A DNA stretch of 34,774 nt, from positions 1-34,774 of the forward strand of contig JAFAOW010000002.1 in the NCBI GenBank assembly GCA_019247455.1. Reading direction: 5' to 3'. This document shows, one piece after another, positions 21,859 through 28,225 of this stretch. Below the pieces are notes generated by a model, which did no database searches, was not told where the DNA came from, and saw only the letters and a program-made list of their open reading frames with translations. Both the position numbers and the translations under genes were made by a program. Numbering within the stretch: the first letter of the stretch is position 1; every line of letters starts with the position of its first letter. Source of the stretch: Acidobacteriota bacterium. GTDB taxonomy: Bacteria; Acidobacteriota; Blastocatellia; Pyrinomonadales; Pyrinomonadaceae.

Positions 21859-22518
21859 ATGAATCTTCGCCGCCTTTTCCTGTATACGTTTGTTGGGTCG
21901 GTTTGCGCGAGCGCTCTTATCGGTATCGGCATCCTTATCTTCGGCAGTTTTGGCGAACTCGAGGTGAAGGTGCTCCTGACCGCCTTGACCGTCACGGTCA
22001 CGAGCATTCTTGGCTTGGCATGCGGCGCCTATTTCGAGGCGCGCGGAGCGCGCATACTTCCGCTGATCGGGATCACGCTGGCAGCCATCGCTGCGGTCAT
22101 GTGGATGTTCGTCATTTGGGCGGACAGCAATCAAGGGGACTATTTTGTCCGGGGTCTGCTGTCGATCACCGTTATCGCAACCGCTTGTTCGCATATCTCG
22201 CTGCTGTCGCTCGCGCGGCTGGATCCTCGCTTTTTCTGGCTGCGGATCGCTGCACACGCAACCGTCTGGCCGCTTGCGGCTCTTATCGTATTTTTGATCT
22301 GGGATTCGAACCTGATAGGTGAGGAAATCACCGGGCGAGTTACCGGCGTGCTGGCGATCCTCGTCGGCGTCACGACGCTTCTCACTCCTCTGTTTCATTG
22401 GCTTAGCTCGCATGAGCCGACCGAGGCCGCGATCGATGCGGAGATCGACAAGCTCAAGATAAAGCTTGCCGAGCTTGAGCGCCTCAAGTCGTCGATGCAT
22501 AAGGGATCGGATCAGTGA
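21859..22518 (+). CDS. Membrane protein of unknown function with a C-terminal coiled coil
   Basis: This 219-residue protein has six predicted transmembrane segments (first [22 protein letters not shown]; last [21 protein letters not shown]) and then a soluble helical tail. The tail (about residues 190-215) has [20 protein letters not shown], a heptad-like coiled coil, so it probably oligomerises or binds a partner at the membrane. GGGAGGA lies shortly before ATG 21859. It follows the M16 gene by 56 bases on the same strand. Its last 35 bases overlap the queC 3' end on the other strand. No family was recognised. Confidence 0.7.
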
Positions 22519-23154
22519 CGCCTGCTCGTTCAAACCCACGTAATCTCAGCGCGCACGAGTCGCACGTCCCGCATGCGAGATCTTCATTGCGATAGCATGA
22601 CCACGTGAGGTGGAGCGGCGCGGTTAGTTGGAGCCCTTTTTTTACGATCTCAGCTTTTGATAGATGGATGATCGGCGTGCGGATCTCGATGTGCGTCTCA
22701 GGCCTCGTCCCAGTGTCGATGACGCTTTGAAACGCCTCATAAAACTCGGGACGGCAATCCGGGTAGCCGCTCGAATCTTCGGCTACCGCGCCTATGTAGA
22801 TAGCGTTCGCGACCACAACCTCCGCCCAACTGACGGCGATCGAGAGCATATTTGCATTGCGAAAGGGAACGTAGCTCGTCGGGATCCCTTTTGAGGCTAG
22901 ATCCGCCTCGGTGACCTCTATATTTTTGTCGGTCAACGAGGAGCCGCCTATCTTGGCGAGGTGCTCGATCGAAACATCAAGCCGATTCTCGATGCCGTAA
23001 TGGTCCGCGATGTCATTGAACGCTTTTCGCTCCCTCGTCTCGGTACCTGGCCGTAGGAGATATGCAGGAACGCCAGTTGCTCGCTCTCGCTCGCAGCGAT
23101 CGCGGCGGTCACGCACGAATCCATTCCGCCTGAGACAAGAACGATCGAACTCAT
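22484..23154 (-). pseudogene. queC: 7-cyano-7-deazaguanine synthase QueC, broken by a one-base frameshift
   Basis: QueC makes preQ0 from 7-carboxy-7-deazaguanine, ATP and ammonia. The N-terminus (ATG 23154; [16 protein letters not shown]) has the PP-loop motif SGGMDS at residues 8-13 and runs to about HISYGQ. The rest ([19 protein letters not shown] ... [24 protein letters not shown]), with the four zinc cysteines, is in another frame. Around 23045-23055 the minus strand reads CAG GT ACC GAG; one base is missing between the Q codon and the ACC GAG that QueC normally has (YGQ-x-TE-x-RE-x-KAF). Joined, the product would be about 223 residues, the family length, and every motif is kept. This is either a very recent inactivation or a sequencing error. 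The start overlaps the preceding stop as ATGA. Confidence 0.9.
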
Positions 23155-23528
23155 AGGTTGTTAACCACTCGGGTGATCCCATTCTTGATCAGGTCGACAT
23201 TAAAATTGATCAAGAGCCCGAGGCGGAGGTCCATGATCTTGAGGTAAGTGCGAACCTGCTTTGCGTGAACCGGCGCGATCGACTCGCCGGATTTGATCTC
23301 GACGATGACCTTTTGATTCACCACAAGATCCGCCCGGAAACCAATGTCGAGTCGCACTGCTTCCCAAACAACCGGCACACCCTGCTGCGTCGACACCTGA
23401 AGCCCGCGTTTGGCCAGCTCATGGGCTAAAACGGATTCGCAAACCGACTCAAGGAGGCCGGGTCCCCATCTTGTGTGAATCTTGAAAGCTGAATCTACTA
23501 TTTCCCGTGAGAGTTGGTTTTCATTCAT
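23151..23528 (-). CDS. GxxExxY family protein (PD-(D/E)XK nuclease-like)
   Basis: With ATG 23528 the protein has 125 residues. [29 protein letters not shown] holds the signature G-x-x-E-x-x-(Y/C); the usual Tyr is Cys here. [18 protein letters not shown] shows D-x(n)-E-x-K, the pattern of PD-(D/E)XK nuclease folds, and [21 protein letters not shown] completes the family. Members are small proteins of unknown function. A longer frame begins at ATG 23624, which overlaps the beta-lactamase stop as ATGA; its extra 32 residues come from palindrome B (RKDAKRHKN...FFATLRE) and look like repeat translation, so I prefer 23528. The stop overlaps the queC start by ATGA, so the two are translationally coupled. 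A nuclease role is an inference. Confidence 0.72.
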
Positions 23529-23539
23529 AGACTTTTTGA

Positions 23540-23611
23540 TTTCCCGCAAAGTCGCAAAGAAGCAAAGAATATCTCGTGCGTTCTTATGCCGCTTAGCGTC
23601 TTTGCGGGAAA
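23540..23611. repeat. Long imperfect palindrome (repeat element B) inside the queuosine-type cluster
   Basis: The outer arms TTTCCCGCAAAG (23540-23551) and CTTTGCGGGAAA (23600-23611) are a perfect 12-bp inverted repeat. The pairing continues imperfectly for about 30 bases on each side (CGC/AAG units). Translated, this sequence gives the RKDAK...FFATLRE pattern known from repeat-derived, probably spurious protein ends in many genomes. It sits between the beta-lactamase-like gene and the GxxExxY gene. Confidence 0.7.
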
Positions 23612-23620
23612 CATCCTTAT

Positions 23621-24508
23621 TCATCTGCCGAGTCCGTCCTGCAGGACTTGCGAGAGCTTCCAGAGCATGGCGAGGCCGGGGTTTTCCTCGTCGTATTCGA
23701 CGACCTTCATATCATCGAGGATGATGGCCATCCCGATGCGGCCGCGGCGTGTGTAGATGATGCCGACATCGGCGCGGAGGCGATCGAGCGCTCCGGATTT
23801 TGAGGCCACTGGGATCGTGTCGGGCATCCCGCGGCCGATGCCGTCCTTGTACTGCTGACGCTTGAGAATGTTGATCATTTCGGCCGACGCCTCCTTTGAA
23901 ACGAGCTGGCCGTTCTCCATCATTTCGATGAGCCGTACGAACTGCCGCGGGCTCGACCGCCCCAGACCGAAAAGCTTATTTTGCGGCTCTTGATACGCCT
24001 TTGACTCGCCTCCGCCGCCGATCTTTCGCATGAACTTAATGTCGGTAAGGCCAAGCGAATCCATGAAGTTGTTAACGTTGTCCGCACCGACCTTATCCGC
24101 TACGAGGTTAGTTCCCGTGTTGTCGGAAACTACGATCATCAGATGAAGAGCCGTCGCAAGATCGATCTTTGTATTGTCAGAGAATTCGCTAAGGACGCCA
24201 GAGCCGCCCTGCTTACTCTCTTTCGTCAAAACGATCTCATCATTCCAGCGCAGCTTTCCCTGCTCGACCTGGTGGAAGGTTTCGGCCATAACAGCCAGCT
24301 TTATCGTGCTCGCTGTACGCGTCTGTTCGTCGCAGCGAAGGCAGTAGTCCTTGCCCGTATCCAGATTCTTCGCGTAGATCCATGCCTTTCCCTGAAACCC
24401 GGCCAGCGCATCCTGTATGCGGTCATCAAGTGACGGCTTGGGCTTCTGAGCAACCAAGCATACCGTTGCTACCAGAATTAGAATCGGCGCCAATATGAAT
24501 TTATTCAT
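23621..24508 (-). CDS. Class A beta-lactamase-like serine hydrolase
   Basis: With ATG 24508 the protein has 295 residues. The signal peptide is ILAPILILVATVCLVAQ. The active-site motifs of class A enzymes are present: S67-T-I-K70 (SxxK), S128-D-N (SDN), and KSG (in VASKSGALDRLR). The Glu that activates water in class A lies in ExxLN; here EPQN (E174, N177) is one residue shorter, so deacylation may differ. It could be a periplasmic beta-lactamase or a penicillin-binding-like hydrolase; resistance is not shown. GAGAGGA precedes the start, which overlaps the preceding ORF by 8 bases. It sits inside the queuosine-type cluster, which is odd for its function and suggests co-transcription rather than a joint pathway. 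Confidence 0.78.
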   Translation of the reverse strand: MNKFILAPILILVATVCLVAQKPKPSLDDRIQDALAGFQGKAWIYAKNLDTGKDYCLRCDEQTRTASTIKLAVMAETFHQVEQGKLRWNDEIVLTKESKQGGSGVLSEFSDNTKIDLATALHLMIVVSDNTGTNLVADKVGADNVNNFMDSLGLTDIKFMRKIGGGGESKAYQEPQNKLFGLGRSSPRQFVRLIEMMENGQLVSKEASAEMINILKRQQYKDGIGRGMPDTIPVASKSGALDRLRADVGIIYTRRGRIGMAIILDDMKVVEYDEENPGLAMLWKLSQVLQDGLGR

Positions 24509-24794
24509 TTTCGTTATTCCTCTCGTCAGAGTCGTGACGGTACGTGTCTCTGTCGATCTGCGCAAGCCAGCGGTCGTTGTCCTTATCGAATTTTACAAAA
24601 CCGTCCACAAGAAGATTGTCCGGACTTCCGAATTCATCGACATCGCTATCCATGTAGAGTGTAAGCTGCATGCCCTCAGCCAGCACCAAGTTCATGTTTT
24701 CTAGATCGCGACGCGTCCCTACGCAGGACAAGATGACGTTGCCGTTAATGTCTATTTTCGAAAGGTCCGCGTAGATCCTTGGCCTGGTTCTCAC
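24501..24794 (-). CDS. Small conserved protein of unknown function between queE and the beta-lactamase gene
   Basis: This 97-residue frame starts at GTG 24794. It is tightly linked: GGAG in the end of queE lies 9 bases before the GTG, 4 bases separate the genes, and its stop overlaps the next ATG by 8 bases. The pattern PRIYADLSKIDINGNVILSC-x-GTRRDLENMNLVLAEGMQLTLYMDSDVDEFGSPDNLLVDGFVKFD... is beta-rich and ends in a charged tail with SDERNNENE. It has no signal peptide or membrane segment and no recognised motif. The tight spacing with queE suggests it is a real gene. I infer no function. Confidence 0.62.
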   Translation of the reverse strand: MRTRPRIYADLSKIDINGNVILSCVGTRRDLENMNLVLAEGMQLTLYMDSDVDEFGSPDNLLVDGFVKFDKDNDRWLAQIDRDTYRHDSDERNNENE

Positions 24795-24798
24795 GAGA

Positions 24799-25443
24799 TT
24801 AGACTCCGCGGGCTTCAGCGCCCCAGATATATTTGTGCAGCTGCAGGTTTAACCGCACCGGCAGCCGCGAACGTGCAACCGCGTCTGCGATCGCGGGGAG
24901 GTCTACGCCGTGGACAGGCGAGACAAGGATCTCTTTTGTTCGTTCGGTAAGGTCATATTTGGCTATCGTTTCTTGTGCGAATTCCCAGTCGTGCAGATCG
25001 GCGATAACGAATTTGACTTCATCTTTCTCGGACCGAAGCCGCTGAAGATTCGGCCAGTGATTTCGTTCCAACTCGCCTGAGGCCGGACATTTTACATCAA
25101 GGATCACGCACGCACGCGCATCGAGATCTTCGGTCGAGACAAAACCTCCTGTCTCGATGAGAACTTCATAACCGCGATCGCAAAGCTCGGTGACAAATGG
25201 GAATACGGCCTTCTGTGCGAGCGGCTCACCCCCGGTCACCTCAACGAGCCTGCAGCCAAATTCCTCGAGCTTTGCAAAGATCGACCCAAATTCTATTTTC
25301 TCGCCGCCATAGAACGTGTATTCGCTGTCGCACCAGACGCACCGCATTGGACATCCCGTCAGGCGCACAAACGAACACGGGCGGCCTGCGTGAGACGATT
25401 CGCCCTGAATTGAGAGGAAGATCTCTGTGACTCGAAGCTCCAC
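24799..25443 (-). CDS. queE: 7-carboxy-7-deazaguanine synthase QueE
   Basis: This radical SAM enzyme of 214 residues rearranges 6-carboxy-tetrahydropterin to 7-carboxy-7-deazaguanine, on the route to preQ0, queuosine and related bases. It starts with GTG 25443; MELRVTEIFLSIQGESSHAGRPCSFVRLTGC is the canonical opening. The iron-sulfur ligands are C31, C35 and C38 (CPMRCVWC). VEVTGGEPLAQ follows, and HKYIWG near the end is typical. A GTG at 25467 lies in repeat C and would add eight residues without support. QueD and QueF are not in the window, but the queC gene lies at the end of the same operon. No promoter was identified; repeat C occupies the gap upstream. Confidence 0.92.
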   Translation of the reverse strand: MELRVTEIFLSIQGESSHAGRPCSFVRLTGCPMRCVWCDSEYTFYGGEKIEFGSIFAKLEEFGCRLVEVTGGEPLAQKAVFPFVTELCDRGYEVLIETGGFVSTEDLDARACVILDVKCPASGELERNHWPNLQRLRSEKDEVKFVIADLHDWEFAQETIAKYDLTERTKEILVSPVHGVDLPAIADAVARSRLPVRLNLQLHKYIWGAEARGV

Positions 25444-25451
25444 AAAAAGCG

Positions 25452-25526
25452 AACCACAGATTAACACAGACGGAAACAGATAAAACCGACATTCCTATCC
25501 GTGTTTATCAGTGTCTATCTGCGGTT
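25452..25526. repeat. Long imperfect palindrome (repeat element C) upstream of queE
   Basis: The left arm AACCACAGATTAACACAGAC...AGATA (25452-25482) matches the complement of the right arm AACCGCAGATAGACACTGAT...GGATA (25496-25526) over about 31 positions. It occupies nearly all of the gap 25444-25533. Its ACAGATTAACACAGA style differs from elements A and B. The palindrome lies between queE and the gene to its right. Confidence 0.65.
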
Positions 25527-25533
25527 AATTCTC

Positions 25534-25974
25534 TCAGAAAAGTCCGAACCAGCCGTATGCATTAAGGATCTCTCCTGCGCCGAATGATGCGAGATTGGCG
25601 AGGACGATCGTGATCATTGCCTGGATCCACCCGCGGGTACCCAGATCGACATTCCTAAAAGCTAGCCAAAAAAGCGAGCATTCTGCGACCGGGGCGAATG
25701 TTTCCGCTATAAAAAGATAAAGGGCACGCGACTGGTCCAGGAAGACCGCGGGCAAAACAAGGACGACAATGGGATATGTACACGCTGTCAGCCAGGCACC
25801 GCATGCAAGACGCTGTTTGATCGTTACCGGCCTCGGAAGTCCAATGAGCAGAACCGGGGTCTCGATCATGATCGTGAACAAATATCCGATCGGAAGAAAC
25901 GCCCACAGTTCACGGATAGGAAGGCTTTGGGTCGGCTCCGGCGGGTTCACGACCATGTCGAATAACATGAACAT
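25534..25974 (-). CDS. Membrane protein of unknown function (4 TM)
   Basis: This 146-residue protein has about four hydrophobic segments (LWAFLPIGYLFTIMIETPVLLIG; TACTYPIVVLVLPAVFL; LFIAETFAPVAECSLFWLAF; WIQAMITIVLANLASFGAGEIL). Its start at ATG 25974 lies 3 bases after the stop of the preceding gene. An alternative ATG at 25968 would shorten it by two residues. No recognised family or catalytic motif is visible. Conserved-looking acidic residues lie within membrane segments (E in MIETP, E in AETF and AEC, E in GAGEI), which may bind metal or cations; this is speculation. It ends the four-gene membrane operon, next to repeat C. Confidence 0.65.
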   Translation of the reverse strand: MFMLFDMVVNPPEPTQSLPIRELWAFLPIGYLFTIMIETPVLLIGLPRPVTIKQRLACGAWLTACTYPIVVLVLPAVFLDQSRALYLFIAETFAPVAECSLFWLAFRNVDLGTRGWIQAMITIVLANLASFGAGEILNAYGWFGLF

Positions 25975-25977
25975 CGC

Positions 25978-26982
25978 TTAGAGCATCTTAATAAGAAAGG
26001 GAAATTCGGCGAGAACGTGACCTATCGCAAATGCAAAATATAGGTCGCGCGTACGAGTGTAGTCGGCCGCAAATCCGAGCCAAAGAACGATGACCAGCAA
26101 AAGACTGACCGCCATCGCGCCGATCACGAGCCGTGGGAAACCGCCCTTATTGACGAATAAGGGAACGCGCTCAAGCTTCCAGGGGATGGCTTTCCAGTCG
26201 ACAAGCGGGATGAGAAGGATCCAAACAAAGTAATGGATGGATTCGAGAAATACATGGGTCGCGACAAGCAAGCGGCTAGAGATCGCCGGAAGGATGTCGC
26301 TGCCCGCGTGTTGCGTGATACGCCAAAAGAGAGTTGTGTCCTCGGGTAAATTCGGCTGACCCGCTAATGCGGCCCAGATCCCGAGAAGGAATACCGGGAT
26401 CGATGCGAGACACCAGTGATAAGCTCGCAGCCACTCGGGCCGGGTCCTTCTGATCTGTCGATCGAGAAACCACATTGCGATAAATGGGTGAATGTAGACG
26501 AGTGCAAGACTCCAGTATTGGGGAACGATCCAAGCCAGAGCTGCCAGGCCGAAAGCGACAGGAAACGCCCAACTCCAATCACTCTTTGGACGTTGGCGTC
26601 CGCGTAGGTAAAAGATCGCGGCGAGCCAGATAACGAAACAGGTGTCCCAAACGGAGGTACCCGTCGCCCAGCTATCCACGCCCCATAACCAATTGTCATT
26701 AGCGAAGTAGAGCGTCAGATACCCGGCCGTGAGTACGGCAACGCCGCCAATTCCTGCCGTGTAATACAGCTTCGAGCGGCCCCAACGCACCGGCATGCGG
26801 GCCGCAAAGTAGCGGAATTCCATAAAGTTATGGATACCCGCAAACAGAAAGATCGTCGCAATGGATAGCTGCAAAGGAAAGGCGCCGATCACGGTCGCGC
26901 CGATAGCGCACGCGGCCAGGAACCCGCCTAATAGCAGATGCCCGCTGGTCAATTCGAACCGACGAACCCGCAGCTCTTGCAT
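25978..26982 (-). CDS. Multi-pass membrane protein of unknown function with intramembrane histidines
   Basis: This 334-residue protein has about eight or nine membrane segments. Several His residues lie in or next to them in conserved-looking settings: FAGIHNFMEFRYF (H51 with E55), ALVYIHPFIAMWFLDRQIRR, VATHVFLESIHYFVWIL and FAIGHVLAEFPFLIKML. Such a pattern can bind metal or heme, as in some membrane oxygenases; Brp/Blh-type carotene oxygenases also use intramembrane His, but the order of motifs here does not clearly match them. No name is given. Its ATG abuts the preceding stop (TAA ATG), so it is translated together with the paralogous pair and the 146-residue protein. Confidence 0.65.
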   Translation of the reverse strand: MQELRVRRFELTSGHLLLGGFLAACAIGATVIGAFPLQLSIATIFLFAGIHNFMEFRYFAARMPVRWGRSKLYYTAGIGGVAVLTAGYLTLYFANDNWLWGVDSWATGTSVWDTCFVIWLAAIFYLRGRQRPKSDWSWAFPVAFGLAALAWIVPQYWSLALVYIHPFIAMWFLDRQIRRTRPEWLRAYHWCLASIPVFLLGIWAALAGQPNLPEDTTLFWRITQHAGSDILPAISSRLLVATHVFLESIHYFVWILLIPLVDWKAIPWKLERVPLFVNKGGFPRLVIGAMAVSLLLVIVLWLGFAADYTRTRDLYFAFAIGHVLAEFPFLIKML

Positions 26983-27582
26983 TTATTCAGTGGTCTTGTC
27001 GTCCGCTTTGGGCACCTCGAGGATCACTTCCCGCTCGTCCATTCCGGTATACACACCCGGTTTCTCATCGACCACCTGGATCACCAGGCTGTCATTTATG
27101 TGCCCCCCGTAATTCTTAACCGACGGATCGAAAATCCGCGTTGTAACCTTAAAGAATCTCGGCGGCGGTGTGTTCGCGTACAGCGTAAGGGCTCCGAAGC
27201 CCACGGCCGCAATGATCGCCAAAGGTGCCGCGACCTTGGCGAATCTTCGACCGCCGCGGAAAGCGATAAAACCGGCGAATACCAACGCTACGGAGAGCAG
27301 GGCCCCGGCGATGATCGTATTTCCGCGTCCGGTTCCGAATCCTATCGCGGCCGCGGTCGTGTTCTCGGCATTTTGATCAAGCGACGCACGTAAGCTGTCG
27401 AGGAGCTCGCGGCGGATCTTCAAGGTCGGTACCTTGGCGTCGGAGCGTAGATCGATCGATATCTGGCCCGGAACGCCTTTTGCCTCGGCCGGCTTGGGTG
27501 CCGGAGTTGGACGCGGAATATCCGCAAGGCTGGAAACGCTAAACAGTGCAGTCAAGAGCAAACAAAAAAATATTTTTCGCAT
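26983..27582 (-). CDS. Secreted/membrane protein, second copy of a tandem paralogous pair
   Basis: With ATG 27582 this protein has 199 residues. It starts with a signal-like segment (MRKIFFCLLLTALFSVSSLADIPRP), then a soluble region (about residues 25-80), two membrane segments (NTIIAGALLSVALVFAGFIAFRGG and VAAPLAIIAAVGFGALTLYAN), and a C-terminal soluble beta-rich domain. GAGGAG (27590-27595) is 7 bases before the ATG. It is paralogous to the gene just upstream: both have an ADI-x-RP start, IDLRSDAK.../IRLDADAE..., LR-A-LD...NT-AA, an I-(A/F)-GA-(L/F)-(I/L)-S core, and YANxxPP. No family was recognised. Topology (signal cleaved or retained) is uncertain. It would present its two soluble domains on the same side of the membrane. 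Confidence 0.68.
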   Translation of the reverse strand: MRKIFFCLLLTALFSVSSLADIPRPTPAPKPAEAKGVPGQISIDLRSDAKVPTLKIRRELLDSLRASLDQNAENTTAAAIGFGTGRGNTIIAGALLSVALVFAGFIAFRGGRRFAKVAAPLAIIAAVGFGALTLYANTPPPRFFKVTTRIFDPSVKNYGGHINDSLVIQVVDEKPGVYTGMDEREVILEVPKADDKTTE

Positions 27583-27586
27583 TAGG

Positions 27587-28183
27587 TTACTCCTCGCCAT
27601 TCGGCTTATCGGGTGGGTTGGGGACGATCAAGGTGATCTTGTCATCCTCAGTTGTCGTTTCAAGCTTTACCCGTCCCCATCCGGTGTTATAGAAATGGAC
27701 GGCCTGTGAAAACATCTTACCGGTGATACTTCGCGCTTCGGCAGGCGGCCCGGCATTCGCATATACGTACGACGCCGCTGACGCAACGCCCAACACAACA
27801 AGCGACACGACAGCACCTTTACCGACGCCGCTCGACGCCTTGCCGGAACGGACAAGCCAGATCCCGCCGAAAACAATTGCGAGGCTAATAAAAGCTCCGC
27901 TGAAGATCGTGGAAAGGCGCGACGTCGCGCTTGATATGACCGCGGCGGTATTACCATTGTCAAGGTCGTCGAGTTGTGCACGCAGCTGTTTTATCTGCGA
28001 TCTGGGAATGATCAGTCGGGCGTCTTCAGCGTCAGCATCAAGACGAATATACATTTCCGTGTCGATGGACTTCGCCTGCTTGGCCGCCTTAGGTGTTTTC
28101 GTCGGATCGGGCCGGGCAATATCCGCCAATGCGACGAGCGAAAACGCCAGAATCAAACTCAATATCGTTGTGATCTTTTTCAT
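27587..28183 (-). CDS. Secreted/membrane protein, first copy of a tandem paralogous pair
   Basis: With ATG 28183 the protein has 198 residues. A signal-like start (KKITTILSLILAFSLVALADIARPDP) is followed by a soluble region, two membrane segments (STIFSGAFISLAIVFGGIWLV and AVVSLVVLGVASAASYVYANA) and a C-terminal domain that resembles its partner gene. AAGGAG (28191-28196) sits 7 bases before the ATG. The stop is four bases from the next ATG. An extended -10 promoter (TGTTATAAT on the minus strand) lies upstream. Function unknown. The duplication suggests a small family whose members may form a hetero-oligomer. Confidence 0.68.
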   Translation of the reverse strand: MKKITTILSLILAFSLVALADIARPDPTKTPKAAKQAKSIDTEMYIRLDADAEDARLIIPRSQIKQLRAQLDDLDNGNTAAVISSATSRLSTIFSGAFISLAIVFGGIWLVRSGKASSGVGKGAVVSLVVLGVASAASYVYANAGPPAEARSITGKMFSQAVHFYNTGWGRVKLETTTEDDKITLIVPNPPDKPNGEE

Positions 28184-28216: not shown

Positions 28217-28225
28217 ATTATAACA
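28217..28225 (-). promoter_or_regulatory. Extended -10 promoter of the four-gene membrane operon
   Basis: On the minus strand TGTTATAAT matches the extended -10 consensus TGnTATAAT exactly; no good -35 is needed for such promoters and none is seen. It lies 34 bases before ATG 28183. On the plus strand the same gap has TTGACA (28198-28203) and TATAAC (28219-28224), 15 bases apart, which could drive pepP, so divergent promoters may overlap. Confidence 0.5.

Follow-up and report, generated by a model that had tools for sequence, protein, structure and literature searches.

The stretch of DNA analysed here (hereafter the window) comprises 34,774 nucleotides of an Acidobacteriota draft genome of approximately 3.28 Mb (G000; contig JAFAOW010000002.1), whose nearest public relatives are titled, for example, Chloracidobacterium, Pyrinomonadaceae, Blastocatellia and Acidobacteria. 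Its minus strand carries a block of four abutting genes between 28183 and 25534, termed P1, P2, P3 and P4 in the order of transcription (Table 1). Only 4 bp separate the stop of P1 from the start of P2, none lie between P2 and P3, and 3 bp between P3 and P4. The coordinates of all four open reading frames (ORFs) and their compact arrangement agree with a first-pass annotation, which had described a membrane operon with its own extended −10 promoter. The promoter motif TGTTATAAT is indeed present at 28225–28217. Although a scan for the −35/−10 consensus returned zero sites in the region, the operon promoter is probably real, because 18 of 62 related loci carry TGNTATAAT 27–49 bp 5′ of the start of the P1 ORF, where mononucleotide shuffles would lead one to expect 0.4. 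The motif was absent from this place in all planctomycete-titled loci of the set.

Table 1. Features of the P1–P4 block; positions refer to the window
Feature	Position	Strand	Description
Extended −10 TGTTATAAT, upstream of P1	28217..28225	−	Seen in the sequence; TGNTATAAT recurs at related loci
Shine-Dalgarno AAGGAG of P1	28191..28196	−	Seen in the sequence
P1	27587..28183	−	198 aa; signal peptide, mature D-I-A-R-P, beta hairpin, two predicted transmembrane helices, C-terminal beta hairpin
P2	26983..27582	−	199 aa; divergent P1 paralogue (long branch), mature N-terminus D-I-P-R-P
P3	25978..26982	−	334 aa; ten predicted transmembrane helices
P3 conserved residues			H51, E55, R57 (TM2); H165 (TM6); H243, E247, H250 (TM8); H322, E326 (TM10)
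P4	25534..25974	−	146 aa; small polytopic protein, invariant E38/E91/E98, WLTACTYPIV motif

P1, P3 and P4 constitute one conserved module, which in the sampled relatives is either present together or absent, and usually lies adjacent on one strand. When 60 related genomes were searched whole, P3 and P4 shared the same 26 genomes. P1 was present in 25 of these and nowhere else; the remaining carrier is G018, whose contig ends within P3. A weak extra P1 match (E 4e-4, with an internal stop) lay on a different contig of a carrier genome (G024), and in two genomes (G034 and G008) P4 was present on a contig other than that of P3. Within the genus of the window, P3 and P4 occurred in 25 of 37 genomes, the window's own included, while 12 had none of P1, P3 and P4, and six of these 12 genomes are at least 97% complete. 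The first-pass annotation had staked its operon on the paralogues not being found apart from P3, and the P1 family was confined to P3-bearing genomes among the 60 checked.

For a wider view, a pattern scan with the P3 alignment was run against one genome per GTDB species, where 119 places encode a relative and 80 loci were kept. By title, 52 of these are acidobacterial and 24 planctomycete, with one each from Opitutae, Melainabacteria, Actinomycetota and a plain "bacterium"; the scaffold of the Actinomycetota-titled locus is named Acidobacteria. A P4 profile match followed P3 in 73 of the 77 loci that were long enough, and a P1 profile match preceded it in 65 of 74, many rows of which had helped to build the P1 profile. 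An earlier neighbourhood count without profiles was lower, at 62/77 for P4 and 61/74 for P1. Nine loci lacked a P1 profile match; at L127 and, with less certainty, at L124, the P1 position is occupied by a signal-peptide protein with a single transmembrane (TM) segment, which is not the case at L137 and L120. A search for P4 in six distant carrier genomes gave one match each. Carriage is sparse: among 396 genomes sampled from the phylum of the window, a single-sequence query detected P3 in 19. The planctomycete phylum sample yielded four of 246, two of them strong (one being the record itself) and two weak, and in the phylum of the Melainabacteria-titled record only that record, of 194 genomes, carries P3. 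Plasmids gave zero matches to P3 or its remote kin.

The conservation of P3 was counted per ungapped rows in an alignment of 81 sequences. Five histidines were retained throughout (H51 79/79, H165 81/81, H243 81/81, H250 81/81, H322 80/80), as were the acids E247 and E326 without exception and E55 in 78/79 rows. H225, located before TM8, was present in 81/81 rows here and in 44/46 of alignment A5, while H15 (21/78) and H189 (50/81) were variable. The eight membrane residues were also conserved in a second alignment of 46 rows reaching down to 37% identity, in which W119, W151, W254 and W301 were invariant and no Cys or Ser was, the best being S40 (44/46) and S235 (41/46). In the best AlphaFold model, with a mean predicted local distance difference test score (pLDDT) of 87.8, P3 has ten predicted TM helices, and the eight essentially invariant residues (H51, E55, H165, H243, E247, H250, H322 and E326) are spread over four of them, mostly mid-membrane. 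With regards to orientation, 20 positive charges were counted in loops and ends, of which 15 fall into the loops 62–68, 127–139, 175–187 and 262–282 and four at the two ends. Both termini of P3 would therefore be cytoplasmic, and TM2, TM6, TM8 and TM10 would consequently run from the outside to the inside. Counted in residues into the respective helix, H51 (15), H165 (11), H250 (14) and H322 (14) lie about equally deep; the acids are found at 19 (E55), 11 (E247) and 18 (E326), and H243 at 7 is nearer to the outside. The first-pass annotation had placed the histidines of P3 in or near TM segments and had made their conservation in homologues decisive. The placement was borne out by the model helices and the conservation by the five membrane histidines and H225, whereas H15 and H189 do not share it.

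More distant sequences narrowed this set of residues. A profile search of the planctomycete phylum led to a remote P3 homologue (L161), and a search with L161 to six further genomes, one with a fragment only. A profile comparison of six remote rows with the P3 clade (hhalign, global mode) gave a probability of 99.4% and E 1.5e-20, by which their kinship with P3 is clear. Four histidines and two acids persist in the remote planctomycete homologues: in an alignment of five remote and three clade rows, H51, R57, Y58, R62, H165, H250, Y251, H322 and E326 were found in 8/8, and position 55 was Asp or Glu in all eight. As judged by eye and without profiles, a P1-like gene precedes five of the six remote P3 genes (L164–L168), and a P4-like gene, also read by eye, follows L161, L164, L167 and L168 on the same strand and accompanies L165 on the other strand. 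These remote P1-like genes encode, by eye, a signal peptide, a D-[IV] start, a TM segment and a basic tail, and the P4-like genes share an [NT]-L-x-[TS]-H-P motif. At one of these loci (L165/L171; L171:8749-9760), the remote P3 is preceded by a tandem array of three P1-like genes (148, 105 and 70 aa), the smallest consisting of a signal peptide, approximately 13 residues and one TM segment. In another planctomycete-phylum genome (L161/L175; L175:4019-11490), the remote P3-P4 pair follows TolC-, HlyD- and M50-HlyD-like genes (by eye).

P4 appears from its sequence, read by eye, to have four TM segments with buried acids, as the first-pass annotation had also noted, and three acids are invariant (E38, E91 and E98 in 14/14 rows). 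Together with the co-occurrence data, the conserved residues lend good support to the earlier idea of a membrane complex, here taken as a dedicated one that has a polar site within the membrane, and it is very likely that the three-gene module is a real molecular machine. Beyond this, we tentatively favor a reading in which P1, P3 and P4 are subunits of one inner-membrane complex with a His/Glu metal core in P3, a proposal that may well fail. Metal binding by P3 is plausible, because strictly conserved His and Glu residues sit in four helices at similar depth. H51/E55, H165, H250 and H322/E326 would bind one or two metal ions at this common depth, with iron, zinc, copper or manganese as candidates, and H243 and E247 might serve as additional ligands in the window's clade. 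P4 could be the partner of P3, either placing its buried acids beside the metal site or holding the complex together.

The same residues could in principle serve other chemistries. In a heme- or cytochrome-like complex, histidine pairs in TM2, TM6, TM8 and TM10 would coordinate one or two b-type hemes, and electrons would cross the membrane. The five invariant histidines in four helices and the four invariant tryptophans are compatible with such a complex. However, acids stand at i+4 from H51, H243 and H322, and E247 also precedes H250 by three residues, all (nearly) invariant in the window's clade, and an acid so close to an axial heme ligand is unusual. Since the acids lie about one turn from the conserved histidines (H51/E55, H243/E247/H250, H322/E326), heme was judged less likely than a metal ion site; a cytochrome profile was also absent from the Pfam matches of P3, and we consider the heme complex improbable. 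A similarly low probability is assigned to a proton or ion channel, in which buried His, Glu and Arg of P3 together with the acids of P4 would conduct protons or metal ions and P1 would gate or couple the flow. The position of the P3 His and Glu residues within TM helices and the three invariant P4 acids would suit it. On the other hand, P3 has no transporter profile match and no significant fold match, though several insignificant top Foldseek rows are transporters, and the strict identity of His and Glu across remote homologues would resemble metal ligands more than a proton path.

In the first-pass annotation, P1 and P2 were described as paralogues with a signal, soluble parts and two TM segments. 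This is confirmed by 34% identity between them, by a phmmer match of P1 to P2 at E 2.9e-21 and by the AlphaFold model of P1 (mean pLDDT 79.9, predicted template modelling score 0.57). The model comprises a signal helix (2–20), a beta hairpin (44–60), a helix (61–75), two TM helices (83–112 and 119–142) and a second beta hairpin (173–188). The hairpins, with block pLDDT of 93–96 and 95, respectively, flank the two TM helices and would both be periplasmic. Common to the family are the signal peptide, a mature start of D-[ILV] with a nearby Pro, and the TM region. Few parts of P1 are as well conserved as the mature start: in an alignment of 40 rows, D21 is invariant and P25 is kept in at least 90%. 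The pattern D-[IV]-x-x-P fits the mature N-terminus in 76 of 85 P1 rows, a count that includes implausibly placed matches (L099, L101, L123 and one of L049). At the cleavage site proposed by a crude caller, D-[ILV] followed by Pro was found in 24 of 53 P1 rows versus one of 238 other ORFs from the same loci, which is a weak control because many of the 238 are probably not genes.

The tandem pair named in the first-pass annotation is not a defining feature of the operon. Two strong P1 copies occur in only six of 25 P1-bearing genomes, and, depending on the count used, 10 to 15 of 80 loci have at least two copies. In a tree of 40 rows, the branch of the window's P1 is short; its neighbor is a single-copy relative (L109), and the surrounding copies are for the most part the only ones in their loci. 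P2 forms the longest end branch (1.2) and groups with a second copy in L079. P2 is a fast-evolving extra copy outside the conserved P1-P3-P4 module.

In the metal-site complex, P1, as its signal peptide and TM segments indicate, would be exported and membrane-anchored, with a mature form beginning with Asp-Ile/Val, and P1 and P2 might cap the periplasmic face via their small beta domain. As a guess, the complex may act as a metalloenzyme on a hydrophobic substrate of the envelope, either a lipid or a surface protein anchored in the membrane, which it would modify or move. P1 may present this substrate through its mature N-terminus D-[IV]-x-x-P or may itself be the substrate.

The latter option borders on a different explanation, surface-protein maturation, in which P3 and P4 form an intramembrane enzyme that sorts, processes or acylates variable and often tandem P1-like proteins as its dedicated substrates, much as exosortases and myxosortases do with theirs. 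Besides the well-kept D-[ILV] start with its nearby Pro, the remote P1-like proteins, which by eye can be reduced to a signal peptide, a short D-[IV]..P region, a TM segment and a basic tail, are in line with it. In three genomes, P3 and P4 are separated by the gene of a signal-peptide VIT/VWA protein of approximately 890 aa (L052:4947-7631, L083:9189-11837, L086:9757-12423); the gene was recognized by phmmer for L052/L079, L083 and L086, and Pfam VIT and VWA were confirmed for the L052 copy. Surface-protein maturation therefore stays under consideration, given this inserted protein and the nature of P1. However, the VIT/VWA gene is found at few loci, P3 lacks an invariant Cys or Ser in 46 rows, and no protease or sortase profile was matched in Pfam or NCBIfam. 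The TM segment with basic tail, a trait of sorting substrates, was seen by eye in the remote P1-like neighbors, whereas in the window's own P1 two TM helices are followed by a C-terminal hairpin and there is no sorting tail. Overall, we regard this explanation as unlikely, yet worth keeping in mind.

Several observations weigh against the metal-site complex. That the P3 residues meet in one site is derived only from the position of their helices and the direction in which these run, and the five AlphaFold models of P3 spread widely in mean pLDDT (87.8, 83.8, 77.4, 75.9 and 49.2). In the remote rows, H243 is lost in 5/5, E247 is replaced by Gln in 5/5 and H225 is kept in 3/5, and by eye neither a P1-like gene before L161 nor a P4-like gene by L166 was seen. 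The P4 match contains an internal stop in three genomes (G018, G023, G040) and is in two pieces in a fourth (G002), which could mean a broken frame or a misassembly in these genomes. In the control of the mature N-terminus, the 238 background ORFs included many probable non-genes. Furthermore, no neighbor fixes the substrate: the commonest neighbor cluster beyond P1, P3, P4 and the ORFs antisense to them occurs in 10 of 57 loci.

No protein of the module matches a named curated family in the libraries searched, and P1-P3-P4 is unnamed. Pfam and NCBIfam gave only sub-threshold matches for the four window proteins, to P1 and P2; a PADLOC scan of the four gave none, and a PHROGs scan a single insignificant match, to P4 (E 0.091). 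Scanned as alignments against Pfam (E ≤ 10), P3 (16 rows) matched three families with one member each (best E 1.4), and P4 (14 members) five families, the best being DUF7942 with two of 14 members and E 0.0085. The alignment of P1 (18 members) matched 43 families, led by DUF4131 (6/18), and Wzy_C had the lowest E (5e-4) among the matches listed for 25 of the 43; these matches were ruled to reflect TM composition and rejected. For the wider superfamily of P3 (8 rows), Pfam returned none and NCBIfam two insignificant matches. Exosortase, CPBP (myxosortase-type) and rhomboid profiles were not matched in the Pfam and NCBIfam scans, and neither a heme-copper oxidase nor a b-type cytochrome profile was among the Pfam and superfamily matches of P3. 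Sequence searches of the PDB gave no match with P3, P1, the superfamily or Brp/Blh as the query, and a single insignificant one with P4 (7qhm_J, E 0.52). Foldseek searches of P3 against the PDB and BFVD gave nothing at E ≤ 0.001, and in VIA-align the best 50 rows of P3 matches reached Z of at most 6.7 over 58–89 residues, values which unrelated helical proteins reach as well. Foldseek with P1 likewise gave nothing at E ≤ 0.001, with three matches at E 6–8. A weak or absent match is no proof of a novel fold. Literature searches for the module or its context returned nothing relevant.

The gene next downstream of P4, at 24799–25467, is queE-like (by eye). Its homologues are found in 28 of the 80 related P3 loci, none of them planctomycete-titled, and a link of the module to queuosine genes was taken as incidental, because the remaining 52 loci, some of them too short to tell, have the module without it. 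Further along, a queC-like frame (by eye; 22484–23182, minus strand) is split, with its start VLVSGGMDS... in a different frame from the remainder, so either the gene is broken or the assembly is in error there. A small ORF (23151–23624, minus strand), which we take to encode a GxxExxY-type protein, overlaps the queC-like start and lies between the queC-like ORF and a beta-lactamase-like serine hydrolase (by eye; 23621–24565).

The module behaves as a unit in the sampled relatives, occurs in more than one phylum and carries eight essentially invariant His and Glu residues in membrane helices. These conserved residues provide a short list for telling whether it represents a new class of membrane metalloenzyme. 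In the boldest version, which we consider unlikely, P3 would be the founder of a superfamily of membrane-embedded His/Glu metalloenzymes that act with P4 on exported, anchored D-[IV]-x-x-P proteins of the P1 type. Such a superfamily would be sparsely distributed in Acidobacteriota, Planctomycetota and a few other phyla, and would imply a novel modification of envelope proteins or lipids. The claim of categorical novelty, however, rests on relatives not having been found, and the function may yet turn out to be a known one.

Among known systems, the Brp/Blh membrane beta-carotene dioxygenases (PF15461, BCD) offered the most attractive comparison, since the motif order of P3 resembles theirs. 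Like P3, they are polytopic, with four invariant histidines along the chain and nearby acids, and by eye the order GxPHxxx[DE], HF/HN, (R)H/HY and PHxxxxD/HxxxE is alike. If P3 were their far relative, it would cleave a carotenoid. The first motif stood opposite PHGxxD in three non-independent local profile alignments, and hhalign global-mode P-values were 7e-4 and 9e-4. Nevertheless, the hhalign probabilities were low (0.3%; local 1.0 and 1.9%; global 10.9 and 9.3%) with a thin Blh profile of six rows, while the remote P3-like rows scored 99.4% against P3 in the same comparison, and in one global alignment of the two, the start of the P3-like proteins fell on the end of Blh. PF15461 was matched neither by P3 (16 rows, E ≤ 10) nor by eight superfamily rows, and in the 60 relatives it exceeded the cut-off in two genomes (G028 and G053), at sites that are not P3. 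Blh-type proteins, as described for BrpA, have seven predicted TM regions (PMC4110020), in contrast to the ten of P3. Phytoene desaturase was below the cut-off in 15 of the 25 same-genus P3 carriers, nine of which are at least 95% complete. Its profile CrtI (TIGR02734) exceeded the cut-off in 10/25 carriers versus 8/12 non-carriers (p 0.17), i.e., with no association with P3; it did not do so in the window genome. Cells below the cut-off might use another type of desaturase or take up carotenoids. A scan of viral contigs with a Brp/Blh protein found no relative. With such profile probabilities and the missing CrtI, homology to Brp/Blh is unsupported and appears very improbable; the P1 and P4 partners set P3 further apart. 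The distribution of CrtI within the genus of the window is uneven, with 18 of 37 genomes above the cut-off. Rare acidobacterial Brp/Blh genes lie beside lycopene-cyclase-like genes at L140–L141, with a rhodopsin-like gene also at L140 (by eye).

Two further comparisons concern the architecture of the module. Exosortase and myxosortase systems pair a polytopic inner-membrane protein with an exported, TM-anchored and variable partner, and polytopic P3 is likewise encoded beside exported, TM-anchored and variable P1. The window module differs from them in that no exosortase or CPBP profile is matched and P1 has two TM segments and lacks a C-terminal sorting tail. Heme-copper oxidase subunit I and other multi-histidine membrane metalloproteins share with P3 the presence of metal-ligand-like histidines in several TM helices. 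Unlike these, however, P3 has no Pfam match, and it combines ten predicted TM helices with HxxxE pairs.

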